Origin: Ruminococcus sp.
GTDB taxonomy: Bacteria > Bacillota_I > Bacilli_A > RF39 > UBA660
Direction of reading: 5' to 3'
DNA: 37,234 bases
Assembly: GCA_023663235.1 (NCBI GenBank)
Contig: JAMPHW010000006.1
Span: 1-37,234, forward strand
Shown: piece by piece, positions 165-36,973 of the stretch
Position numbering within the stretch: position 1 is the first letter of the stretch
How the letters are laid out: every line of letters starts with the position of its first letter
Translations under genes and position numbers: made by a program
Notes under the pieces: model-generated
What the model saw: the letters and a program-made list of their open reading frames with translations, nothing else
What the model was told of the DNA's origin: nothing
Database searches by the model: none

Positions 165-509
165 GTGATAAGTATGAATAAAAAAGGTTTTACTTTAATT
201 GAATTATTATCAACAATTACTATTATGGGGCTAATAGCTACTGTAGCAAGTATTAATATTGTAAAAATATTTGATAATAAAGATAGTGAAACAGAGAATA
301 CTAAACATGATATTATTACTACAGCAGCTTGTCTTTATATTGAATTAGAAAGTAATAGTATTCTAAAAGAGCAGTGTTTAACTGATGGTTGTTTAGTTTC
401 AACGACAACTTTAATTAATGCAGGACTACTATATGAAGAAGATATCGAAAAAGAAGAAATAGTTAAAATATATAAAGATAAACAAGAAAAAAAATGTGTT
501 ATTGAATAA
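165..509 (+). CDS. Type IV pilin-like / pseudopilin protein
   Basis: This 114-aa protein has a class III prepilin signal: a short basic leader ending KKG, then FTLIELLSTITIMG, with the Glu at mature position 5 and a hydrophobic helix. Prepilin peptidase would be expected to cut after the Gly and N-methylate the Phe. The rest is a small, mostly polar domain with four Cys that could form disulfides. The listed start is GTG 165; ATG 174 (MNKKG...) is equally possible, and neither has a clear ribosome site. Only 12 nt separate it from rnr, so co-transcription is likely. No pilus ATPase, platform protein or prepilin peptidase lies nearby, so its assembly partner is elsewhere and its role (competence, secretion or adhesion) is unknown. 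Confidence 0.8.
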   Translation: MISMNKKGFTLIELLSTITIMGLIATVASINIVKIFDNKDSETENTKHDIITTAACLYIELESNSILKEQCLTDGCLVSTTTLINAGLLYEEDIEKEEIVKIYKDKQEKKCVIE

Positions 510-521
510 GAAAGGATTAAT

Positions 522-2633
522 ATGAAGGAACAAATATTAAGTATATTAAAGAATATTCATGAAGCTAAAACACTAATGGAAATTAATGACTTATTAGGTC
601 TTAAAACAGTAGAAGAATTACAAGAATTAACTGCATGCTTAGAAGAATTAGTTAATCTATATATGGTGTTTAAAACTAAAAAGGATAAATATTTATTGAT
701 GGCAAATTGTCCAGGTCTTAGAATCGGAAAATTAACCGTTAATAAAAAAGGATTTGGCTTTTTGATATTAGAAAAAGAAGATGATTTATATATATCAGAA
801 AATAATTTAAACAATGCTATTAATAATGATACTGTATTAGTAGAAATAATAAAAAAAGGTTTAAAACCTGAGGGACGAGTTATAAAAATCATTAAAAGAG
901 ATTTAGAAAATGTTGTTGGAGAAATAATATTTGCTAATAATAAGATGATGGTTAAACCCGATGATGATAAATTAGATTTAAAAATTTATGTAAGTAAAGA
1001 AACTGGTAGTAATTGCGTAGAGGGTCATAAGGTTTTAGTACATTTAACAAAAGATTTAGGAGCTAAAAGCTACATGGCCGATTGTATTAAAATTATTGGT
1101 CATAAAAATGATGCAGGAGTAGATATTTTAAGTATCGCATATAAATATGGAATTGAAAGTGAATTTAATTCGGAAGTTATAGAAGAATTAGATGATATTC
1201 CAAGTGATGTAAGCAAAACTGATTTAATTGATCGTAGAGATTTAACAGATATGGAAATATTTACTATTGATGGAGCAGATACGAAAGATATTGATGATGC
1301 GATTAGTTTAGAATACCATGATAATATATATACTTTAGGAGTACATATTGCGGATGTTAGTCATTATGTAAGAGATAATACAGCCTTAGGAGATACGGCA
1401 TATAACAGAGGTACTAGTTCCTATTTAGCAGATACAGTTATTCCAATGATACCTCATAAACTTTCTAATGGTATTTGTTCTTTAAATGAAAATGTGGTTC
1501 GTTTAACAATGAGTTGTGTTATGGATATTAATACTAGAGGAGAAATTATTAAGTATGATATTTTCCCAAGTTATATTAAATCAAGAAAAAAAATGACTTA
1601 TAAAGAAGTTAATCAAATACTAGAGGGAAAAGAGACGCCAGTTGGTTATGAGCCATTTAAAGATACCCTTTTAAAAATGAATGAACTTGCTAAGATATTG
1701 CGAAAGAAAAAAGTTAACGATGGTTACATTGAGTTTGAAATTGATGAAGCTAAAGTTATTCAAGATGAAAATGGGTGTGCTATAGATATCCAAAAAAGAA
1801 CTAGGGGCGATGGCGAAAACTTAATTGAAGATTTTATGATAGCAGCAAATGTTACTGTAGCTACACATATTGCTAATATGGAGTTACCTTTTATTTATCG
1901 TGTCCATGCTTTACCTAACAGCGAGAAAATAGAAGATTTTATGAATTTAGTTAAAGCTTTAGGTTATACTATTAGGACTAATATAAAAGAAATAACGCCG
2001 AAGACAATGCAAAACTTATTAGACGAATTAAAAGATAAACCTGAGTTTAATATATTATCATCTTTATTACTTCGAAGTATGAAAAAGGCTGAGTACTCTA
2101 AAACAAATATTGGACACTTTGGTTTAGCATGTCTTAATTATACACACTTTACTTCCCCTATTAGGCGATATCCAGATTTAATGGTTCATAGATTATTAAA
2201 AACTTATCTCATTGATAAAGATTTTAGTATGAGTACAATTAAATATTTAGATACATCACTCGTAACAATTGCTGAGCATTCAAGCGAAAGAGAAGTAGCT
2301 AGTGTTAATGCTGAAAGAGATGTTAACGATATGAAAATGGCTGAATATATGGAGAAACATATTGGTGAAGAATATGATGGTATAATTAGTTCTGTTACTA
2401 ATTTTGGTTTCTTTGTAGAACTTGAAAATTTAATTGAAGGTTTAGTTCATATTAACACTTTAAAAGGAGATTATTATAATCATGTTCCTGAACTTTTATC
2501 TCTTATAGGAAAAAGCACAAAAAAAACTTATCGAGTTGGGGATAAAGTAAGAATTAAAGTTATTAATGCTTCTAAAGAAACTGCCTTAATTGATTTCGCT
2601 TTAGTGGAGGAAAAAGATGGAAGTAAAAAATAA
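522..2633 (+). CDS. rnr: Ribonuclease R
   Basis: This 703-aa 3'-to-5' exoribonuclease of the RNB family degrades structured RNA and, with tmRNA-SmpB, the mRNAs of stalled ribosomes. It has an N-terminal winged-helix region (about 1-60), cold-shock/OB domains (about 65-195), the RNB catalytic domain and a C-terminal S1 domain (about 616-697, [16 protein letters not shown]). The metal-binding Asp cluster is intact in [13 protein letters not shown]250, D256, D258, D259. [16 protein letters not shown] and [16 protein letters not shown] are also typical. The ATG follows AAAGGA at a good distance. The gene overlaps smpB by 17 nt, the classical rnr-smpB coupling. Length is slightly below the common 750-800 aa. 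Confidence 0.97.
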
Positions 2634-3042
2634 AAGAGCTTACTTTGACTATAGTATTTTAGAAGAATTAGAGGCTGGTATTGTCTTATCTGGTACTGAA
2701 ATTAAATCAATTAGAAAAGGTTCTGTTGATTTAAAGGATAGTTATGTAACAATTAAAAAGAATGAAGCTTTTATTATTAATATGTACATAGATAAATATG
2801 AAGAAGGAAATATTTTTAACCATGATGAGCGAAGAACAAGAAAGCTTTTATTACATAAAAAAGAAATCTTGAAATTAAAAGAAAAAATTAAAATAGAAGG
2901 ATTAACCCTAGTTCCTTTAAAACTATATTTAAAAAAAGGATATGCTAAAGTATTAATTGGAGTAGCTAAAGGTAAAAAGTTATATGATAAAAGAGCGGCA
3001 TTAAAAGAAAAGGATTTAAAAAGGGAAGCTAGATATTATTAA
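2617..3042 (+). CDS. smpB: SsrA-binding protein SmpB
   Basis: This 141-aa protein binds tmRNA and is required for trans-translation. Family hallmarks are [39 protein letters not shown] and a basic C-terminal tail ending [10 protein letters not shown], which in characterised SmpB enters the mRNA channel. The start lies inside the 3' end of rnr and is preceded by GGAGG within rnr coding sequence, so translation is coupled. A terminator follows immediately. ssrA itself is not in this window. Confidence 0.97.
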
Positions 3043-3045
3043 TTT

Positions 3046-3080
3046 AAAAAAGTATATTATAAAATATACTTTATTTTTTT
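3046..3080 (+). terminator. Bidirectional terminator between smpB and the deformylase gene
   Basis: The stem AAAGTATAT/ATATACTTT has a short AT loop and T-rich tails on both strands. It sits between convergent genes and can serve both. Confidence 0.75.
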
Positions 3081-3084
3081 CTAA

Positions 3085-3672
3085 TTAATTCGTATTACCA
3101 TCTTTTGAAATTACAGTGTATGGATTATTGGCACGATATTCTTTCATTTCTGCTAAAGTCATTTCAAATATTTCTTTTGATTTATCCATGTGTAAAATTC
3201 CATTTAAGTGATCATATTCATGACTAAATACTGTTGCTTCAAATCCCTCAATAGTTTTTCTATTCTTATTACCATTTAAATCAAAGTATTCAATCTCTAT
3301 CATATAGGGTCTTTCGACTATTCCAGCATAATATATTCTTTTATCTTCTTTATGGTATATGCAGCTTGCACACCCCTCTAAAAAGATAGTTTTTCCTTTG
3401 GCACTGATTATAATTGGATTAATATAAATTATCTCTTCATTATAACCATTAGTTACATTATTATCCATATTGGAAGAAGTATTCTTTATATAAATAATTC
3501 TTTTAGGAATGCCTATTTGAACTGGAGCTAAAGCATATACAGAATTATTTTCACAATAATCTTTTAAAGCTTCAATGTATTCCAAGAAATTATCTTTTTT
3601 AAAATCAACTTCAGATGAAATTTGTCTTAAAAAAGTCTCATCTTTTTCAATTGTTTTTCTAGTTAAAGGCAT
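3085..3672 (-). CDS. Divergent peptide deformylase-family metallohydrolase
   Basis: This 195-aa protein belongs to the peptide deformylase family, which removes the N-formyl group from nascent proteins. Motif 2 is EGCAS (Cys101) and motif 3 is HEYDH (His151, Glu152, His155), so the metal ligands and catalytic Glu are present. Motif 1, normally GxGLAAxQIG, reads YALAPVQIG: Gln52 is kept but the leading glycines are lost. The interior also carries an Asn-rich insertion (about 66-79). It is the last gene of a four-gene minus-strand unit, 13 nt after the transglutaminase-like gene. It may be the housekeeping enzyme or a divergent paralogue; the gene symbol is withheld for that reason. Confidence 0.82.
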   Translation of the reverse strand: MPLTRKTIEKDETFLRQISSEVDFKKDNFLEYIEALKDYCENNSVYALAPVQIGIPKRIIYIKNTSSNMDNNVTNGYNEEIIYINPIIISAKGKTIFLEGCASCIYHKEDKRIYYAGIVERPYMIEIEYFDLNGNKNRKTIEGFEATVFSHEYDHLNGILHMDKSKEIFEMTLAEMKEYRANNPYTVISKDGNTN

Positions 3673-3685
3673 TTATTCACCGCTT

Positions 3686-4261
3686 TCACAAATTTATTAA
3701 AATACTATTATCAATATGTTCACGCATTTCATGACCATTTATATGATATTTCGGTTGATTATATTTATAAATATAAAACTTATTATTATCATAGTTTTCC
3801 TTTATAAATTTCTTTGATATAGCATTTTTTATGAACACTCTTTTAAAATCTGTTAATAATTCTAAAATGTTATTATATTTATGAATACCACTATAGAAAC
3901 ATAAGTTATCATTAAACATTGGCTCAAACCAATAAACTTCATCATCATTATAAAAGACTAAAATAGAGTGACTAGGACAACCTTCATTATCATCATAAAA
4001 TAAATAATAAGTTTCGTATTTTAAGGTAGTCATATTTTTGAAGAAACATCTAGCAAGTTCTGTCATATCCCAACAAATACCTATATGACTATTTAATAAT
4101 TCTTTAGGAGACTGCAGAGAATATAATGTAGCATCATTAAATCCTTCATGATTTTTGCCATTTTTATCTATCCAACCATAACTAAAGTTATTTTGCATAT
4201 ATTTAAAAAAGCTTTCAATTGTATTTATTTTATGATCAGCAAAATATTTTTTATAGTCCAT
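3686..4261 (-). CDS. Transglutaminase-like (papain-fold) protein
   Basis: This 191-aa soluble protein has no signal peptide. A plausible Cys-His-acid triad is visible: Cys63 in GICWDMTELAR, His98 in CPSHSILVF and an acidic residue in YWFEPMF (Glu113). This order and spacing match the transglutaminase-like superfamily, whose bacterial members act as proteases, peptide-modifying enzymes or inactive scaffolds. The assignment rests on motif pattern only. The gene sits 2 nt after the DUF1653 gene and 13 nt before the deformylase-like gene, so it is in the same operon. Substrate unknown. Confidence 0.6.
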   Translation of the reverse strand: MDYKKYFADHKINTIESFFKYMQNNFSYGWIDKNGKNHEGFNDATLYSLQSPKELLNSHIGICWDMTELARCFFKNMTTLKYETYYLFYDDNEGCPSHSILVFYNDDEVYWFEPMFNDNLCFYSGIHKYNNILELLTDFKRVFIKNAISKKFIKENYDNNKFYIYKYNQPKYHINGHEMREHIDNSILINL

Positions 4262-4263
4262 AA

Positions 4264-4491
4264 TTATTCTTCTATTTTTTCGAAACGATATTTTTGTTTA
4301 ACATTAGGATACTTTTCTTTATCTACTAAAGATAAAAACATTTCTTCTTTTCTTACCCATATTTCATTACTATCTAAGTGTTCATAAACAACAACTTTCT
4401 CTTCTGTTTCAGAATCTTTAGCTAATAATAAAACTTTAACTAATTGACCTTTAAAATGTCTAAAGATATCTCCTACTTTTACTTCACGCAT
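4264..4491 (-). CDS. DUF1653 family protein
   Basis: This 75-aa protein matches DUF1653: it opens MREVKVGDIFRHFKG, continues with AKDSETEEKVVVYEHL and EIWVRKEEMF, and ends with EKYPNVKQKYRF. These are the family's conserved positions; the function is not established. A longer open frame extends upstream to 4539, but ATG 4491 is preferred because family homology begins there and an AGAGG site lies just upstream. It starts 1 nt after the membrane-protein stop and ends 2 nt before the next gene, so it is translationally linked to both. Confidence 0.85.
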   Translation of the reverse strand: MREVKVGDIFRHFKGQLVKVLLLAKDSETEEKVVVYEHLDSNEIWVRKEEMFLSLVDKEKYPNVKQKYRFEKIEE

Positions 4492-4492
4492 A

Positions 4493-5020
4493 TTAATTAC
4501 CTCTAAAAGCATCAATGAATAACAAAATAGCATTAACAATTAATAACCAACCAATTATTACTAAAACAGCATTGGAAAAGAAAATACTATAAATGCCTAA
4601 AATTATTAACGCAATATTACTAATAGTAGTAACTAAAGCTGTTTTTTTAAATTCACCAAAGCCAAACTGAGTTAGTAATCTACTTACACCCATATAAACT
4701 AAAAAGAAACCTAAAATATATCTTATACTAACTTCAATAGCATTACTTAAAACAATTAATAAGATACCAATAATAATTGAGGTTATAGCAACACCTAAAT
4801 TAAGTCCTTTTACTTGAACTAAATCTTTATTTTGATAATATTCAATAAAAGCTTTTACGCCGTAAACAATGACTAATATTCCTATTATATAAAATAATAA
4901 TTGAACAGCTTGATTACTAAAAAATGCTAAAATAATACCTAATATTAAATACATAACTGCGGTAACAACAGATTTATTATTACCAGTATTTTTCTTAGGT
5001 TTAATAATTTCTGATTTCAT
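4493..5020 (-). CDS. HdeD/DUF308-like integral membrane protein
   Basis: This 175-aa protein has about six hydrophobic helices arranged as repeated two-helix units with glycine-rich segments (LILGIILAFF, ITSIIIGILLIVL, IALIILGIYSIFF). This is the pattern of HdeD/DUF308 membrane proteins; E. coli HdeD is linked to acid resistance, but function here is unknown. Two starts are possible, 5041 and 5020. The second is preferred because GAAAGTAGG lies upstream of it, whereas the first would begin only a few bases after the predicted transcription start. First gene of a four-gene unit. Confidence 0.75.
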   Translation of the reverse strand: MKSEIIKPKKNTGNNKSVVTAVMYLILGIILAFFSNQAVQLLFYIIGILVIVYGVKAFIEYYQNKDLVQVKGLNLGVAITSIIIGILLIVLSNAIEVSIRYILGFFLVYMGVSRLLTQFGFGEFKKTALVTTISNIALIILGIYSIFFSNAVLVIIGWLLIVNAILLFIDAFRGN

Positions 5021-30454: not shown

Positions 30455-31186
30455 TTAAGCTGTTTGTTTAACTGAACTTAAATTGTCAACACCAGTGATT
30501 GAAGCATTAATTGCTTTACCTTGGTCATCTGATTGGTCAACTGTATCACTATTAGGATAGTCAATAACTAAATAATAGTAAGTAGTTGTATTTGTATTAG
30601 TTGACAATTCTTGGCTTGGTTGCTTATCAGTAGTTTCATTAGTCTGAGTTACTGTTACAGCAGCACCGTCAGTAGAAGCTGCTACTTTTCCACTAGCTAT
30701 TTTAGTACCATAAGTATTTTCTCCAGTACAAGTATATTTAGAACGAGTTTCACCTGCTGGTATGCTACTATCATCAGCATTTGTTAATTGTTGTAATGAA
30801 CAATTTTTGGCATTTGTAATTTCACTACTAGACTTATATAAAGTATAGCTTAATTCTGTCTTTGTGGAATTTGAAATTGAATATGTTACTCTATATGTTA
30901 AGTCATACTCATTAGTATCTGAGCTTTCTGCTTTTGTAGCTACTACTTTAGCTCCAACATAAGCAAAGCCTCCTGGATAATCTAATTGTCTTACAAATGG
31001 AGTAGCGGTTGGACTTAGTGTTAAAGTTGCGCCATTAGCGCTAGCTGCAGTATTTCCTGTTGTGCTACCTCCTTGACCAGTACTAGTTGTTGTTGCAGTA
31101 AAGTACGCAAATGTTGCACCAACAACGGCAACTAATAGAGTAGCTACTGCGATTACTGTTAATAGAATTGTATTTTTTCTTTCCAT
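30455..31186 (-). CDS. Secreted protein with SipW-type signal peptide (TasA/camelysin-like)
   Basis: This 243-aa protein begins MERKNTILLTVIAVATLLVA, then VVGATFAYFTATTT: a signal ending in the A-(T/Y)-F/Y-A-Y-F-(S/T) pattern seen in proteins processed by SipW-type signal peptidases. The mature part is Thr/Ser/Asn-rich, strand-like, with a single pair of Cys and little charge, fitting an extracellular fibre or surface protein. The frame opens further upstream (31246), but ATG 31186 is preceded by AAAGGA and starts the signal. No SipW gene is in the window. No clear promoter was found upstream. Confidence 0.72.
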   Translation of the reverse strand: MERKNTILLTVIAVATLLVAVVGATFAYFTATTTSTGQGGSTTGNTAASANGATLTLSPTATPFVRQLDYPGGFAYVGAKVVATKAESSDTNEYDLTYRVTYSISNSTKTELSYTLYKSSSEITNAKNCSLQQLTNADDSSIPAGETRSKYTCTGENTYGTKIASGKVAASTDGAAVTVTQTNETTDKQPSQELSTNTNTTTYYYLVIDYPNSDTVDQSDDQGKAINASITGVDNLSSVKQTA

Positions 31187-31469
31187 AACTATTTCCTTTC
31201 TCCTCTCTACTATAAAGATAATAACAAAAAAAGGGTTATAATGCAAGTAGTAAAAATGTATTTATAAAAAAAGTGTTAATTATTTTTAAACAATTATAGT
31301 TTTTATTTAGCAAACTTAGTACATGATATTTTTTAATTTGTGAAGTAATGCTTAATTATCTTTATATATAATAAATTATATTGTAGAATTGCTCTTTTCT
31401 TCATATAATATATTATACATTTTCTAGTGATAATTGGATTATAAATTAAGATAGTATTATTTGTTACTT
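31187..31469. other. AT-rich intergenic stretch
   Basis: The ~320-nt gap between the SipW-type gene and the cohesin gene holds the leader of the former (ribosome site near 31190-31205) and, at its far end, the terminator of the latter. The middle is extremely AT-rich, with many TATA-like words on the minus strand but no convincing -35/-10 pair, hairpin or ORF with a ribosome site. Confidence 0.5.
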
Positions 31470-31507
31470 AAAAAAATCCTGTTAGATTTTTTCTAATAGG
31501 ACTTTTT
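31470..31507 (-). terminator. Terminator of the dockerin-cohesin operon
   Basis: On the minus strand, AGTCCTATTAGA, A-rich loop, TCTAACAGGAT, then seven T: a strong stem (one mismatch) with its 5' arm touching the stop codon region. Confidence 0.9.
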
Positions 31508-33080
31508 ATTTCTTTTTCTTCCTTTTCTTAGATTTCTTTTCATCTTCAAATAAGTCATATACTTCTTCGTCATCATCTAAGACTTTTTTTATTTCATTAT
31601 TAGGGTCGACTTTTATTTTGTTTACTTCAACCTCTTCTTTTGGTTCTTTTTCTTTATTTTTGTCTTCTACTTTTTTAACTTCTGTCTTGTTATTTGTTTT
31701 CTTTTCTTCATTAGTTATTTTTTTTACTTCATCAACTACATCATTAAGTTTTCTTGTAGCTTCTAGTTTAGCTTCTTGTTTTTCAATAAATTTATTCATT
31801 TTCTTTTGCTTTTTCTTACTACTATGTAGAAGACTTAAAATAATGATAAGCATGATTATTAACGTTGCAGTAAAGGCTATTATTATATAAGAATAATTCT
31901 TAATTGTTGTGGTCATTTCATTCATATATGTCTCATCATATAAAATAGCACTATTATTTTCAGTATCATATAAATAAATATTCGTTTCACCATCTTCAAG
32001 ATTTTGAGCATTTATAATTACAAAATGACTATCTTTAGAATATTTATAGACTTCAACTTCTTCATCGTTAATAGTAGTTGTTGTTTTAATTAAATTTAAT
32101 GTACTTGTAAAAGGTACTGGTATTAACATATAATTTTTTAAACTCATCTCGTTATATGGTAAATATTCATCATTATTATATATAAATAAACCAATATTAC
32201 CACTTGTATCTTTTAATCCTACTAAAGTAAGACTAGCAGATGTATTTTCAAAAGCAGGTATAGAGAAACTATCAATATCAACAGTTGTTTCACTAAACGT
32301 TGCTGGAGCAGTTAAAAGAGAAGCATTTTTAACAACAATATAATCTTTATTATTTACAGTAACATTAATAGGATTTTGATCTTCAACATTAACAAGCAAA
32401 TTATAAGTTTTTTGATCACCATTTTGAGCAGTGATGACAATAGGAAGTGTATTTAAACCTTCTGTTACTTGGGCCTCACCAGCACCACTTACAGAGGCAG
32501 TCTCATCATTTACTGTAGCTTTTATATTAACAGTATTAGTACCAGTTGGAACATTAATACTATACTCTAATGTGTCTTTATCGAAAGCTTTGTCAAGTTC
32601 AAAGCCTTCAACAGTTAAATCCTTTAAATTATTATCTTTGCTATAACTAGCTTCTAATTCTTCTTGAGTCATAATAGTTATTTTTTTATTAGACTTTGTA
32701 ATAGACATACCACTTGTATCATAAGCATAGACATCGTAACTTCCAATAGTTAAACTAGTAGTACCACTTTTTAAGGCACGAAATTTTAAGGTATAACTTT
32801 TACTTTTAGTAGAGCCATTACCATAGTTAACAAAATAAGTTCCATTATTTTCGGCATTAGAAGAGGTTAATTTTAAGAAGTTTGAATCATAGTTTAAATC
32901 GAATTCCCAAGCGCCTAAGGCACTGCCACTTGATAAAGTTACAGTTACAGTTACAGTATTTCCAACAACAACAGTAGAAGACGACGTTATGGAGATTTTA
33001 CCTGATGCAGCACTAGCACTTACAGGAAAAGCAATTATTCCCAAGATAAAGGTTAATAAAACAAAGATTTTTTTAAACAT
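31506..33080 (-). CDS. Membrane-anchored cohesin-domain protein
   Basis: This 524-aa protein has a signal peptide (about 1-25, ending ASA), a cohesin-like domain (about 27-138: ITSSSTVVVGNTVTVTVTLS, ALGAWEFDLNYDSNFLKL, LKFRALKSGTTSLTIG), a cadherin-like beta-sandwich (about 150-232: LKDLTVEGFELDKAFDKDTL, ending YNLLVNVE), an unassigned extracellular region, one membrane helix (about 397-418) and a highly charged Lys/Glu cytoplasmic tail ending KKSKKRKKKK. ATG 33080 is chosen because AGGAGG is correctly spaced for it and too close to the upstream ATG (33086). It lies 14 nt after a gene whose product carries a dockerin, the known binding partner of cohesins. Confidence 0.85.
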   Translation of the reverse strand: MFKKIFVLLTFILGIIAFPVSASAASGKISITSSSTVVVGNTVTVTVTLSSGSALGAWEFDLNYDSNFLKLTSSNAENNGTYFVNYGNGSTKSKSYTLKFRALKSGTTSLTIGSYDVYAYDTSGMSITKSNKKITIMTQEELEASYSKDNNLKDLTVEGFELDKAFDKDTLEYSINVPTGTNTVNIKATVNDETASVSGAGEAQVTEGLNTLPIVITAQNGDQKTYNLLVNVEDQNPINVTVNNKDYIVVKNASLLTAPATFSETTVDIDSFSIPAFENTSASLTLVGLKDTSGNIGLFIYNNDEYLPYNEMSLKNYMLIPVPFTSTLNLIKTTTTINDEEVEVYKYSKDSHFVIINAQNLEDGETNIYLYDTENNSAILYDETYMNEMTTTIKNYSYIIIAFTATLIIMLIIILSLLHSSKKKQKKMNKFIEKQEAKLEATRKLNDVVDEVKKITNEEKKTNNKTEVKKVEDKNKEKEPKEEVEVNKIKVDPNNEIKKVLDDDEEVYDLFEDEKKSKKRKKKK

Positions 33081-33094
33081 ATACATTCCTCCTT

Positions 33095-34843
33095 TTATCC
33101 TTGTGATATGGTTTCAGCTTTTAAGATATGACGTTGAATTAATAATAAATCTAGAACATTTACAACTCCATCATGATTTATATCAGCGGCTTTATTATAA
33201 GAGTTAATTAAATTTGTAGACTTTAAGATATGACGTTGGATTAATAATAAGTCTAAGGCATTTACATTGCCATCACCTGATGGGTCACCATAAATTAGAC
33301 ATTCATAGGTATTAGTACTAGAACCAGTAATCGTTATTTTATAACCAGTTCCAAGTTTACCGTTAGTCACTGTATTTCCTTTAGCGTTTTTTACAGTTAC
33401 TTTATTAGAACCAGCGACACCTTCTAAATTACTTATTAAATCTTCTACTTTAGTTTCAGGATTAATGTTTGTTAAATAATTTCCATTATATTTATAACCA
33501 CTACTTGTAATAATTGATGCTGGTGAAAGGTTAGAAACATCAGAATTTGAAGCTCCACTATTATCAGCACCATTATTAATATTATCACTAGCACTTGTTG
33601 GAAGTTCAGTATAGGCTGGCATGTTTTCGTATACAGGAATACTAAACGAAAAACTGGAATTTAGTGAATCACTATTTTTATAAGAGTTATAAGCGGTTGA
33701 AGCTTCACCATAAGGAGCTCTGATATTAGTCATATATTGGTGTGTATAAATAGAATTAGTATTACTAGGAGCAACGTTAAACTTTTGTAAATAACGAGTA
33801 TTTTGACCAACTTGAATATAATTTTTACTAATACTAGAAATACCACCTTTTATAGCGTTATTTAGACCCTTCCAATTATTATTTTGAGCTGACTCTAAAC
33901 CACAGACAGTAGTTCCTTTGGTTGCAGCACAAGCATCACTTACACCATAATTATAAAAATTATAATAATTTTCGAATCCTGGATAAACCCCACTATAAAG
34001 ATTATATAAAGAATTGCTAGTGCCTATTTCTTGAAGGATTCTTGATGATATAAAGGTTGGACTAACATTTAATTCCTTTCCTACATCATTAATAACAGTA
34101 CTTAAATTACTACCATGATATTGATAGAAAGCAGCATTTTTTAAAACTGAACTTACAGCATCAGTATAGACATCTGATAAGCTATCCATATAAGATAACG
34201 TCTCAAACATAAAGATATATTTTTCATCTAAGAAATTTCTTGGGTCAATATAATATCTAACTGCTCCAAAACTGGCTGGTTTCCAAATACTACTTGAAGA
34301 ATAGGCGCTTTTACAAGTAGAATCATAATAATTAGAGTCATAAGTTTCAATGTAACTTTTACCACACTTACTTTCTTGAGTTACAACAACATTAAAATCT
34401 AAGCCTGTACTTATAGCTTCAAAATTCCAGTTAGAATGTTTGCTTTGAAGTTTACATAAAGGTACAAAGTAAGAACTAGTAAAGCCTTTTATTTGTAGAT
34501 TAACTTCACAAGTATTAGTCGGAGACACATTATCATTATTATTAGAACTACCATCATAGTAACGAACGTGTTCACTGCAAACATAAGCACTAGAACCATT
34601 ATAATTTATTTCATACCAACCACTTGGGCAACCACCACTTGTATCAGAAATAATTGTATCGTTTTTTAAATAATATTTGGAACCTAATTTACCAGTAGTA
34701 TATTTACCATAACTAGTATCAGGACCTTTACGGATATTTAAAGCGTCTTGGAAGATAACATAAGAAGTAGCATAACTATTTAAAATATGACAAAAAAAGA
34801 CAAAAGTAAAAAGTAAAAAATATTTAATAAAACTTTTCTTCAT
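33095..34843 (-). CDS. SH3-glucosaminidase peptidoglycan hydrolase with C-terminal dockerin
   Basis: This 582-aa protein has a signal peptide (about 1-25), a bacterial SH3 domain (about 28-95, ALNIRKGPDTSYGKY), a linker domain with NWNFEAISTGLDFNVVV, and an N-acetylglucosaminidase domain (about 185-360: YYIDPRNFLDEKYIFMFETL, ILQEIGTSNSLYN with probable catalytic Glu272). A Ser/Asn-rich linker (about 410-436), an Ig-like module (about 437-518) and a type I dockerin (519-582) follow. Both dockerin calcium loops are complete: D520/S522/D524/N528/D531 and D554/N556/D558/N562/D565, each followed by LDLLLIQRHILK. AGGAGG precedes the ATG. First gene of the operon with the cohesin protein. Cellulosomal dockerins usually sit on polysaccharide-degrading enzymes; here the cargo is a wall hydrolase. 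Confidence 0.9.
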   Translation of the reverse strand: MKKSFIKYFLLFTFVFFCHILNSYATSYVIFQDALNIRKGPDTSYGKYTTGKLGSKYYLKNDTIISDTSGGCPSGWYEINYNGSSAYVCSEHVRYYDGSSNNNDNVSPTNTCEVNLQIKGFTSSYFVPLCKLQSKHSNWNFEAISTGLDFNVVVTQESKCGKSYIETYDSNYYDSTCKSAYSSSSIWKPASFGAVRYYIDPRNFLDEKYIFMFETLSYMDSLSDVYTDAVSSVLKNAAFYQYHGSNLSTVINDVGKELNVSPTFISSRILQEIGTSNSLYNLYSGVYPGFENYYNFYNYGVSDACAATKGTTVCGLESAQNNNWKGLNNAIKGGISSISKNYIQVGQNTRYLQKFNVAPSNTNSIYTHQYMTNIRAPYGEASTAYNSYKNSDSLNSSFSFSIPVYENMPAYTELPTSASDNINNGADNSGASNSDVSNLSPASIITSSGYKYNGNYLTNINPETKVEDLISNLEGVAGSNKVTVKNAKGNTVTNGKLGTGYKITITGSSTNTYECLIYGDPSGDGNVNALDLLLIQRHILKSTNLINSYNKAADINHDGVVNVLDLLLIQRHILKAETISQG

Positions 34844-34868: not shown

Positions 34869-34897
34869 ATTATATAATAAATAAAGAGTTATAACAA
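34869..34897 (-). promoter_or_regulatory. Promoter of the dockerin-cohesin operon
   Basis: On the minus strand, TTGTTA (34897-34892), 17 nt, TATAAT (34874-34869). Short leader before AGGAGG. Confidence 0.65.
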
Positions 34898-35008: not shown

Positions 35009-36973
35009 GTGGATAAATTATTTAAGAAACTTAAAAAGGTTAATAAAATATTTTTAATTATTTATATTATGACTTTTATTTTATATACAGTAAACTACAG
35101 TTTACTATTTAGAAACATAATAAATTTAGAGGGAGTAGAAAATTTAATTAGGTTTATAATACTTGGTTTATTCTTCACTTGGCTTATTATATACTTTTTA
35201 TGGAATTTAGTTAACTTAATATTAAAAAGACATGTGACAATTGCTGTTACAACAGCGGTTACAATGATACTGATAGTTTTGTTTATTTTTGTTAATTATT
35301 ATGTAGGTATATTATATAAAGGAATGAGCAACTTAAGAGAAAATGAGTATGTTACTTATACATCTAATTTAGTAGCTTTTAAAAACAGTAACATTGATAA
35401 AAATAGCAAATTAGGAATGATTAATAGCACTGATGATATAGAAGGTAATGTTTTAGCTAAAGAATTAATTGATAAAGAAAAGTTAGATGAAAATGATATT
35501 ATAAGTTATAGCAGTTATTATGAAATGATATACGCTTTGTTCAATAAAGAAGTCGAGGGAATATTTTTAAATAGCAATTATCTAAGCATATTTAGCGAAG
35601 AAGAATTTAATGAACTTAAAAATACAGAGATTATTTATAGTTTCAGTAAAAAGCTTAAAAACCAAGATAATAATATAACAAGTAATAAAAGTTTAACGGA
35701 ACCAATCACAATCTTATTAATGGGTGTAGATAGTGAGGGTAATGGATTAGAAAACAGTTCATCATTTAATGGTGATACATTAATGCTTATTACATTTAAT
35801 CCTAAAACGCTTAATGCAACAATGTTTTCAATACCAAGAGACACATATGTGCCTATAGCTTGCAATAACAATAGATACAGCAAGATTAACTCATCGGCAG
35901 CTTATGGAACTAATTGTGTGATAGATACAATAGAAAACTTAACAGGTATTGATATAGATTACTATGTTAAAATAAACTTTAAGGGCGTAGTTGATTTAGT
36001 AGAAGCATTGGATGGTATTGATGTTGATGTAGAAGTTCCAGACTATCAATATTATTATAATACATATAACGGTAGAGTTTGCGAGCAAGACTCATTAAGA
36101 CAATTTGGAGATAATTTAATATGTATGGATACAGGATATCAACATTTAAACGGAGAACAAACTTTAGCTTATGCAAGATGCAGACATGCTTATTTACAAA
36201 GTGATATTGCAAGAAATAAACATCAACAACAAATAATAGAGGCGATTGCAAGAAAACTTGCTAACCCTTCAAATTTATATAAATTAGATGAATTATTAGG
36301 TGCTATAACTAATAATTTAGCTACTAATATGACACAAAAGCAAATGTTATCTTTCTATGATGTATTAAAGAATATGATTTCTAAGTCATTTAAAGATGGA
36401 GATTTAGTATCTATCCAAAAGACTTACTTAGAGTATTATAATTTACCAGTTAGATTAAGTAATAACGGAACTATTGTAGCAGCGATTGGTTATTATCCTG
36501 ACTCTTTAAAAGCTATAGTAGATTTAATGAAAGTAAACTTAGAATTAGAAGAAAAAGAAAGTATAAAATCATTTAGTTTTGATGCTAACAAAGATTATCA
36601 GACTAAAGTAGTTGGTCAAGGTATTACAACAGGAGAAAAGTTAGAAACTGTACCTAATTTTATAGGTCTTAGTGTTAGTGAAGCTGAGACTTGGGCTTTA
36701 AATCATAATATAGAATTACATATTGAATTTGTAACAAGTGAGAGTGAATTTTACAATGAAGGAGTAATGCCTGGTTTAATTGCTAATCAAAGTGTTAATA
36801 ATGCAGTACTTATTAACAATGTTACAGATTTAACAATTTATATTAATAAAAATTCTAGTAATAACAATACAGATAATAATAACGATGACGATAATGATAA
36901 TCAAAACATTATAGATGATCCACTAGATATGTTTTTACCAAGTTTAAGCGATAATAATAATGAAGAGGAATGA
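35009..36973 (+). CDS. LytR-CpsA-Psr (LCP) family protein with PASTA domain
   Basis: In this 654-aa protein, three N-terminal membrane helices (about 13-34, 46-70, 76-100) lead to an extracellular region of about 130 residues of unclear fold, then the LCP domain (about 231-440). LCP landmarks are ITILLMGVD, NGDTLMLITFNP, ATMFSIPRDTYVPI, KINSSAAYG and LAYARCRHAYLQSDIARNK, with the Arg/Asp residues that bind the polyprenyl-pyrophosphate donor. A PASTA-like domain (about 545-615, VPNFIGLSVSEAETWA) and an Asn/Asp-rich tail follow. LCP enzymes attach wall polymers to peptidoglycan. GTG start behind AGAGGTGG; TGA stop. Divergent from the dockerin-cohesin operon. Confidence 0.93.
   Translation: MDKLFKKLKKVNKIFLIIYIMTFILYTVNYSLLFRNIINLEGVENLIRFIILGLFFTWLIIYFLWNLVNLILKRHVTIAVTTAVTMILIVLFIFVNYYVGILYKGMSNLRENEYVTYTSNLVAFKNSNIDKNSKLGMINSTDDIEGNVLAKELIDKEKLDENDIISYSSYYEMIYALFNKEVEGIFLNSNYLSIFSEEEFNELKNTEIIYSFSKKLKNQDNNITSNKSLTEPITILLMGVDSEGNGLENSSSFNGDTLMLITFNPKTLNATMFSIPRDTYVPIACNNNRYSKINSSAAYGTNCVIDTIENLTGIDIDYYVKINFKGVVDLVEALDGIDVDVEVPDYQYYYNTYNGRVCEQDSLRQFGDNLICMDTGYQHLNGEQTLAYARCRHAYLQSDIARNKHQQQIIEAIARKLANPSNLYKLDELLGAITNNLATNMTQKQMLSFYDVLKNMISKSFKDGDLVSIQKTYLEYYNLPVRLSNNGTIVAAIGYYPDSLKAIVDLMKVNLELEEKESIKSFSFDANKDYQTKVVGQGITTGEKLETVPNFIGLSVSEAETWALNHNIELHIEFVTSESEFYNEGVMPGLIANQSVNNAVLINNVTDLTIYINKNSSNNNTDNNNDDDNDNQNIIDDPLDMFLPSLSDNNNEEE

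Follow-up and report, generated by a model that had tools for sequence, protein, structure and literature searches.

A conserved cohesin–dockerin gene pair in Bacilli as a probable membrane tether for a SagB-like glucosaminidase

We analysed a 37,234-nucleotide (nt) stretch of DNA (hereafter the window; GenBank assembly GCA_023663235.1, contig JAMPHW010000006.1, positions 1 to 37,234) from a genome deposited as Ruminococcus sp., which measures 1.5 Mb, is 94% complete, belongs to the class Bacilli and has Candidatus Caccenecus avistercoris among its close relatives. Two adjacent genes of the window encode a secreted SagB-like glucosaminidase that ends in a dockerin (gene 1) and a membrane-anchored protein that begins with a cohesin (gene 2, hereafter the anchor). 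The gene pair is a conserved module of several families of Bacilli, and we consider it probable that it forms a dedicated cohesin–dockerin tether that holds the glucosaminidase at the membrane and works like the SagB–SpdC system. Physical binding of the dockerin to the cohesin is very likely, judging from the operon, the joint absence and the co-divergence of the two partners. The module comprises the following features, with anchor domains in the numbering of the 526-residue reading frame:

33095..34843, minus strand: gene 1, secreted SagB-like glucosaminidase with C-terminal dockerin, 582 amino acids (open reading frame and domain matches)
34766..34843, minus strand: signal peptide of gene 1, residues 1–26 (read from the translation)
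34565..34747, minus strand: bacterial SH3_3 domain, residues 33–93 (PF08239, 28.3 bits, cut-off 27)
33581..34525, minus strand: SagB/GH73-like glucosaminidase core, residues 107–421 (NCBIfam and PDB profile search)
33122..33292, minus strand: type I dockerin with two complete calcium loops, residues 518–574 (PF00404)
33088..33094, minus strand: ribosome binding site of gene 2, a perfect AAGGAGG 7 bases before ATG 33080
31506..33080, minus strand: gene 2, membrane-anchored cohesin protein, 524 amino acids from ATG 33080 (open reading frame, domains, orthologs throughout the genus)
32664..33011, minus strand: cohesin domain, residues 26–141 (PF00963 and predicted fold)
32388..32627, minus strand: cadherin-like beta-sandwich, residues 154–233 (PF12733, 40.4 bits, cut-off 24.2)
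31932..32369, minus strand: second beta-rich domain, residues ~240–385, conserved in all anchors (predicted all strand, mostly at a pLDDT, the per-residue model confidence, of 83–94)
31824..31889, minus strand: predicted single membrane helix, residues ~400–421 (model helix 386–427, hydrophobicity by direct reading)
31509..31823, minus strand: charged cytoplasmic tail with a conserved KQEAKxEATRKLND and a C-terminal VYDLFEDE

The longest reading frame of gene 2 begins at 33086, but the AAGGAGG places its start at ATG 33080, and the gap between the genes is therefore 14 nt. In agreement with the original prediction, which was made from the sequence alone, two minus-strand reading frames lie 14 nt apart, the first encoding a secreted SH3-glucosaminidase with a complete type I dockerin, the second a protein with a signal peptide, a cohesin-like domain, a beta-sandwich and a membrane helix. 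The dockerin of gene 1 matched Dockerin_1 (PF00404) over the whole model (positions 1–57 of 57; E 6.2e-17, 62.6 bits, cut-off 22.9). By direct reading, every ligand is present in both calcium loops (DPSGDGNVNALD and DINHDGVVNVLD), and the two repeats are near-symmetric (ALDLLLIQRHIL / VLDLLLIQRHIL), giving the duplicated calcium loop–helix segment with intact ligands of a type I dockerin. The glucosaminidase core was not recognised in the Pfam scan of gene 1. It matched the NCBIfam SagB model NF052642 with an E-value of 6.6e-12 at 45 bits, far under the cut-off of 425, and we therefore regard it as a relative of SagB and not as an ortholog by the NCBI standard. When the PDB was searched with a profile of 27 orthologs, the best solved relative was SagB of Staphylococcus aureus (6u0o_B, E 1.7e-13, spanning residues 171–412), followed by other GH73-type autolysins. 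Glu272, which lies in a QEIG motif, is invariant among the orthologs and aligns with LLETG of SagB, consistent with a GH73-like core that carries the catalytic glutamate.

The anchor consists of a signal peptide, the cohesin, the cadherin-like domain, the second beta domain, one membrane helix and the charged tail, in this order. PF00963 matched its N-terminal domain in two scans (31.0 and 33.5 bits, cut-off 24.1). A full-length hmmscan missed the cohesin, probably due to the HMMER composition filter, and it was the scan of the N-terminal 150 residues that recovered it at 33.5 bits. Since cohesins came up only weakly (E 0.12) when PDB sequences were searched with the anchor profile, the assignment rests on Pfam together with fold prediction. 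The AlphaFold model of the ectodomain had a mean pLDDT of 88, and in a structural comparison of residues 26–141 the top 25 matches were all cohesin-containing entries, the best of them (Z 13.4) being 1g1k_A (2.0 Å, 114 residues, 28% identity) and 2vo8 from Clostridium perfringens. Thus, the predicted model has the cohesin jelly-roll fold, which had been proposed as a check on the cohesin-like domain, and on sequence and model together we read the N-terminal domain as a true cohesin. At the opposite end of the protein, the VYDLFEDE tail motif (window 31509–31560) is conserved and almost restricted to the genus; it may bind a cytoplasmic partner.

Among the 36 genomes of the genus, a hydrolase match was found in 35 and an anchor match in all 36, although in one of them (G018) the anchor match is limited to the repeat domain; wherever both genes are whole on one contig, they are adjacent. 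In a survey essentially of Bacilli, with classes outside Bacilli hardly sampled, the anchor profile was found in 59 of 395 genomes, mainly in the family of the window and in two further families (f13 and f19). For 92 of the 100 anchor genes examined, the gene immediately upstream ends in a dockerin and is separated from the anchor by −17 to 30 nt. Three of the eight exceptions are at or near contig ends. The others are two short anchors without any N-terminal domain and without a dockerin gene in the vicinity (loci L138 and L140), one locus with reversed order, the anchor preceding the dockerin gene (L181), one in which the partial anchor-profile match lies inside the cargo protein itself (L172), and L175, to which we return below. 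The two short anchor-like genes (L138, 5349–6395; L140, 5021–6001) both lie near a metA-like gene. In the 193 genomes of the window's family, according to two match lists compared by hand, both genes were present in 124, neither in 59, the hydrolase only in nine and the anchor only in one, where it sits at a contig edge. This bears out the expectation that the two genes would co-occur in relatives, and recurrence in nearly all genomes of the genus, as well as at 92 of 100 anchor loci across Bacilli, rules out an artefact of chance or composition. We also considered whether the module is tied to the presence of a wall, but the comparison was uninformative: all 193 family genomes have penicillin-binding transpeptidases, so that absence of the module does not mean absence of a wall. 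The genome of the window itself has five transpeptidase matches and thus makes peptidoglycan.

The dockerin co-diverges with the N-terminal domain of the anchor (N-domain). Distances between N-domains correlated with distances between dockerins at r 0.80. In partial correlations, where each pair was compared given the other two, N-domain and dockerin were still correlated at 0.60 after accounting for the enzyme and the remainder of the anchor, whereas the dockerin gave values of −0.01 with the rest of the anchor and 0.07 with its own enzyme; a permutation version of the test gave 0/2000 versus 636/2000. Unsupervised clustering of the N-domains yielded two main sets, 64 cohesin-like and 27 immunoglobulin (Ig)-like. 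The recognition segments of the dockerins are DLLxxQK-like next to cohesin-like anchors and DYVxIKN-like next to Ig-like anchors, and with dockerin classes named after inspection of the data, the two types matched in all 81 classifiable pairs (58 + 23), with none in disagreement. On a tree built from the remaining anchor, supported branches show at least five changes of N-domain type, and in all five independent pairs the dockerin differed in the same way as the N-domain.

In some lineages, then, the cohesin is replaced by an Ig-like N-terminal domain. The model of one such domain (L117; pLDDT 90) resembles Ig-like domains of the Big_2, intimin and S-layer type, and the cohesin entry 2w1n appeared among its top structural matches only across two domains. 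Profile comparison linked the variant to the cohesin-type set at ~95%, compared with 0.05% for a cadherin-like control, a link that the shared signal-peptide end may inflate. The variant is apparently related to the cohesin set, either as a remodelled cohesin or as a replacement module in which the docking role is retained; no other part of our interpretation is as uncertain. On a broader and more speculative reading, docking may be the common way of holding a SagB-like glucosaminidase at the membrane in a large clade of walled gut Bacilli with reduced genomes, replacing an SpdC-type scaffold, with the Ig-like domain serving in several sublineages as a non-cohesin receptor for a changed dockerin; we rate this as somewhat doubtful.

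The cargo upstream of the anchor changes between lineages. The window's family has a SagB-like glucosaminidase in this position. Most loci of f13 and f19 have a PF01832 glucosaminidase that is built differently, and one locus of these two families (L122) has a GH25 lysozyme. By sequence match, the cargo is thus nearly always a peptidoglycan hydrolase (SagB-like, PF01832 or GH25), and its switching among loci leaves the dockerin and the anchor as the constant elements and the wall hydrolase as their usual, exchangeable load. Separately, at 13 loci, some of them near-copies (L056, L059, L060, L116–L119, L150, L154, L161, L171, L173 and L174), the glucosaminidase core of the upstream gene appears to be a natural circular permutation, in which the segment matching the last 90–120 positions precedes the segment matching the first 200.

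Taken as a mechanism, the glucosaminidase would be exported by its signal peptide, and its C-terminal dockerin would plug into the N-terminal cohesin of the co-translated partner. Docking is probably calcium-dependent, and it may also influence the activity of the enzyme. The partner's single helix would fix it in the membrane, and its cadherin-like and second beta domains would act as a spacer or short stalk. Kept near the membrane in this way, the enzyme could cut the glycan strands of new wall as they emerge. By analogy, a SagB-like role on nascent strands is possible, and we would put it at slightly less than an even chance.

Several points weigh against this interpretation. Not every load is a wall hydrolase: the cargo at L127, a locus of f13 or f19, is a metallo-beta-lactamase-fold protein, and the 978-residue dockerin protein of L181, which is of the DYVKIKN type, does not look like one by eye. 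At L175, a cohesin anchor adjoins a glucosaminidase-like protein without a dockerin. The Ig-like lineages have no recognisable cohesin, and binding of cohesin to dockerin does not directly explain them. The 59 family genomes that have a wall and lack the module mean that it is not essential to the clade. Finally, the independent-pairs test on the switches gave a p of 0.0625, the minimum reachable with five pairs. Because related genomes inflate the correlation and the dockerin classes were named post hoc, we consider the tree-based count of switches the fairer figure. As for the L181 locus itself (422–4595), an Ig-type anchor is followed there by the dockerin protein, which is possibly a metallopeptidase.

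A different role for the anchor, that of an inhibitor, is unlikely. The anchor would then be mainly an immunity-like membrane cohesin protein that keeps a potentially lethal autolysin sequestered and inactive until its release, and both the close operon linkage and the joint absence also fit such an antagonist pair. Moreover, the N-domain keeps some correlation with the enzyme (partial r 0.425). However, the dockerin and the catalytic core are separate modules, co-divergence is strongest with the dockerin, and the dockerin persists where GH25 or another enzyme has taken over as cargo, an exchange that an active-site inhibitor could hardly accommodate. We therefore regard inhibition as the less likely role compared with positioning, and a net tethering effect as quite probable.

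It is also improbable that the anchor belongs to a larger surface scaffold, a simple cellulosome-like system in which one cohesin anchor takes several dockerin proteins. The original prediction had suggested that other dockerin proteins might be encoded elsewhere in the genome, and they are: besides those of the module, the genome contains four more dockerin matches and three more cohesins, among them a 2272-residue dockerin protein directly followed by a 900-residue cohesin protein. A hub role did not hold up. In ten of the 19 genus genomes of good quality, the pair supplies the only dockerin and the only cohesin, so that it is a dedicated one, and many relatives have a single cohesin in all. 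In the window's genome the four cohesin matches are each on a separate reading frame, and no scaffoldin with several cohesins was found. The recognition segment of the extra dockerins differs (TNDNVKVSNHIL versus ALDLLLIQRHIL), as does the type of the cohesins next to them; this points to a second pair, orthogonal to the first. Dockerin matches in this genome fall on the glucosaminidase, on two giant repeat proteins and on two small ones that were judged non-enzymatic by eye only. With single-cohesin anchors and wall-hydrolase cargo, a cellulosome is not supported.

The second dockerin-then-cohesin series lies on another contig of the same genome (L039, G000 contig C13, 163–15434). Its 2272-residue protein is a cadherin-repeat protein with a C-terminal dockerin, the 900-residue cohesin protein is accompanied by a 402-residue one, and a 282-residue cohesin protein and a sortase-like gene lie nearby. 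A further locus (L040, G000 contig C8, 121–19482) encodes a giant cadherin-repeat protein of 5643 residues together with two small proteins in tandem; each of the three has a dockerin match at its C-terminus, one of these matches being below the cut-off.

That the hydrolase binds the anchor through another domain, such as the cadherin-like stalk, and that the cohesin-like domain has another ligand is very improbable: the cadherin-like and following domains are the part common to all anchors and the N-domain type is variable, even non-cohesin by fold, but the dockerin does not track the cadherin-like or the second domain once the N-domain is accounted for (partial r 0.02 and −0.01), and the anchors that lack only the N-domain also lack a dockerin neighbour.

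The surroundings of the module in the window include three further features:

31477..31501, strand undefined (given as plus in the tool listing): possible terminator, a 25-nt hairpin just past the stop of gene 2 (hairpin search)
34869..34897, minus strand: promoter-like TTGTTA-17-TATAAT upstream of gene 1 (consensus match only)
35009..36973, plus strand: divergent LytR-CpsA-Psr gene (domain match, neighbourhood survey)

The hairpin search found one hairpin where 0.9 were expected by chance, which makes for weak support of a terminator, and promoter-like consensus matches numbered 34 against 26.7 expected. No RNA element was found in an Rfam search. LytR-CpsA-Psr enzymes form a family that attaches polymers to the wall, and a gene of this family is the commonest neighbour of the module, present at 45 of 92 loci and divergent and directly upstream at 37 of these. 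Downstream, the window encodes a 263-residue surface or secreted protein (30455–31246) with a hydrophobic start ending in ATFAYFTA; it is reminiscent of SipW/TasA-type proteins and had no confident family match in a Pfam scan.

If our interpretation is true, a cohesin–dockerin device serves core envelope biology in bacteria without a visible cellulosome, and it suggests how gut Bacilli with reduced genomes place a glycan-strand cutter at the membrane. The pairs that co-diverged over at least five switches would also offer a ready collection of docking modules that may be orthogonal and of dockerin receptors that may not be cohesins.

Cohesins and dockerins are textbook parts of cellulose-degrading machines. 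Non-cellulosomal pairs are known, notably in C. perfringens, and our search of open-licence papers returned no description of a wall hydrolase that bears a dockerin and has a cohesin partner in the membrane; such a pair therefore appears to be new. The C. perfringens proteins GH84C and GH33 (2w1n, 2vo8, 2jh2) resemble the module in using cohesin and dockerin outside cellulosomes and are among the closest solved folds. In that species, the two partners are secreted glycoside hydrolases whose substrates are host glycans, whereas the module combines a wall-hydrolase cargo with a membrane anchor. Anchoring scaffoldins of the OlpA/OlpC type are likewise surface proteins with one type I cohesin, and the anchor matches the OlpA and OlpC cohesins in fold. 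Those scaffoldins are attached to the wall and take plant-polysaccharide enzymes or scaffoldins; the module differs in that its anchor has a membrane helix and a constant partner in the operon, and in that no cellulosome is seen. The remaining comparison is with S. aureus, where SpdC, a CAAX-protease-like integral membrane protein, scaffolds the membrane-associated SagB for cleavage of nascent strands (PMC10581084). The enzyme of the module, unlike SagB, has a signal peptide and would be held through dockerin and cohesin by a single-pass protein, and gene 2, with one predicted membrane helix and beta domains, is not a multi-pass partner of the SpdC type. Because of this, and because gene 1 falls under the SagB cut-off, the module is not a member of the SagB–SpdC system. 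What the two would have in common is a dedicated partner that keeps a glucosaminidase of this fold family at the membrane, and a proposed action on nascent glycan.

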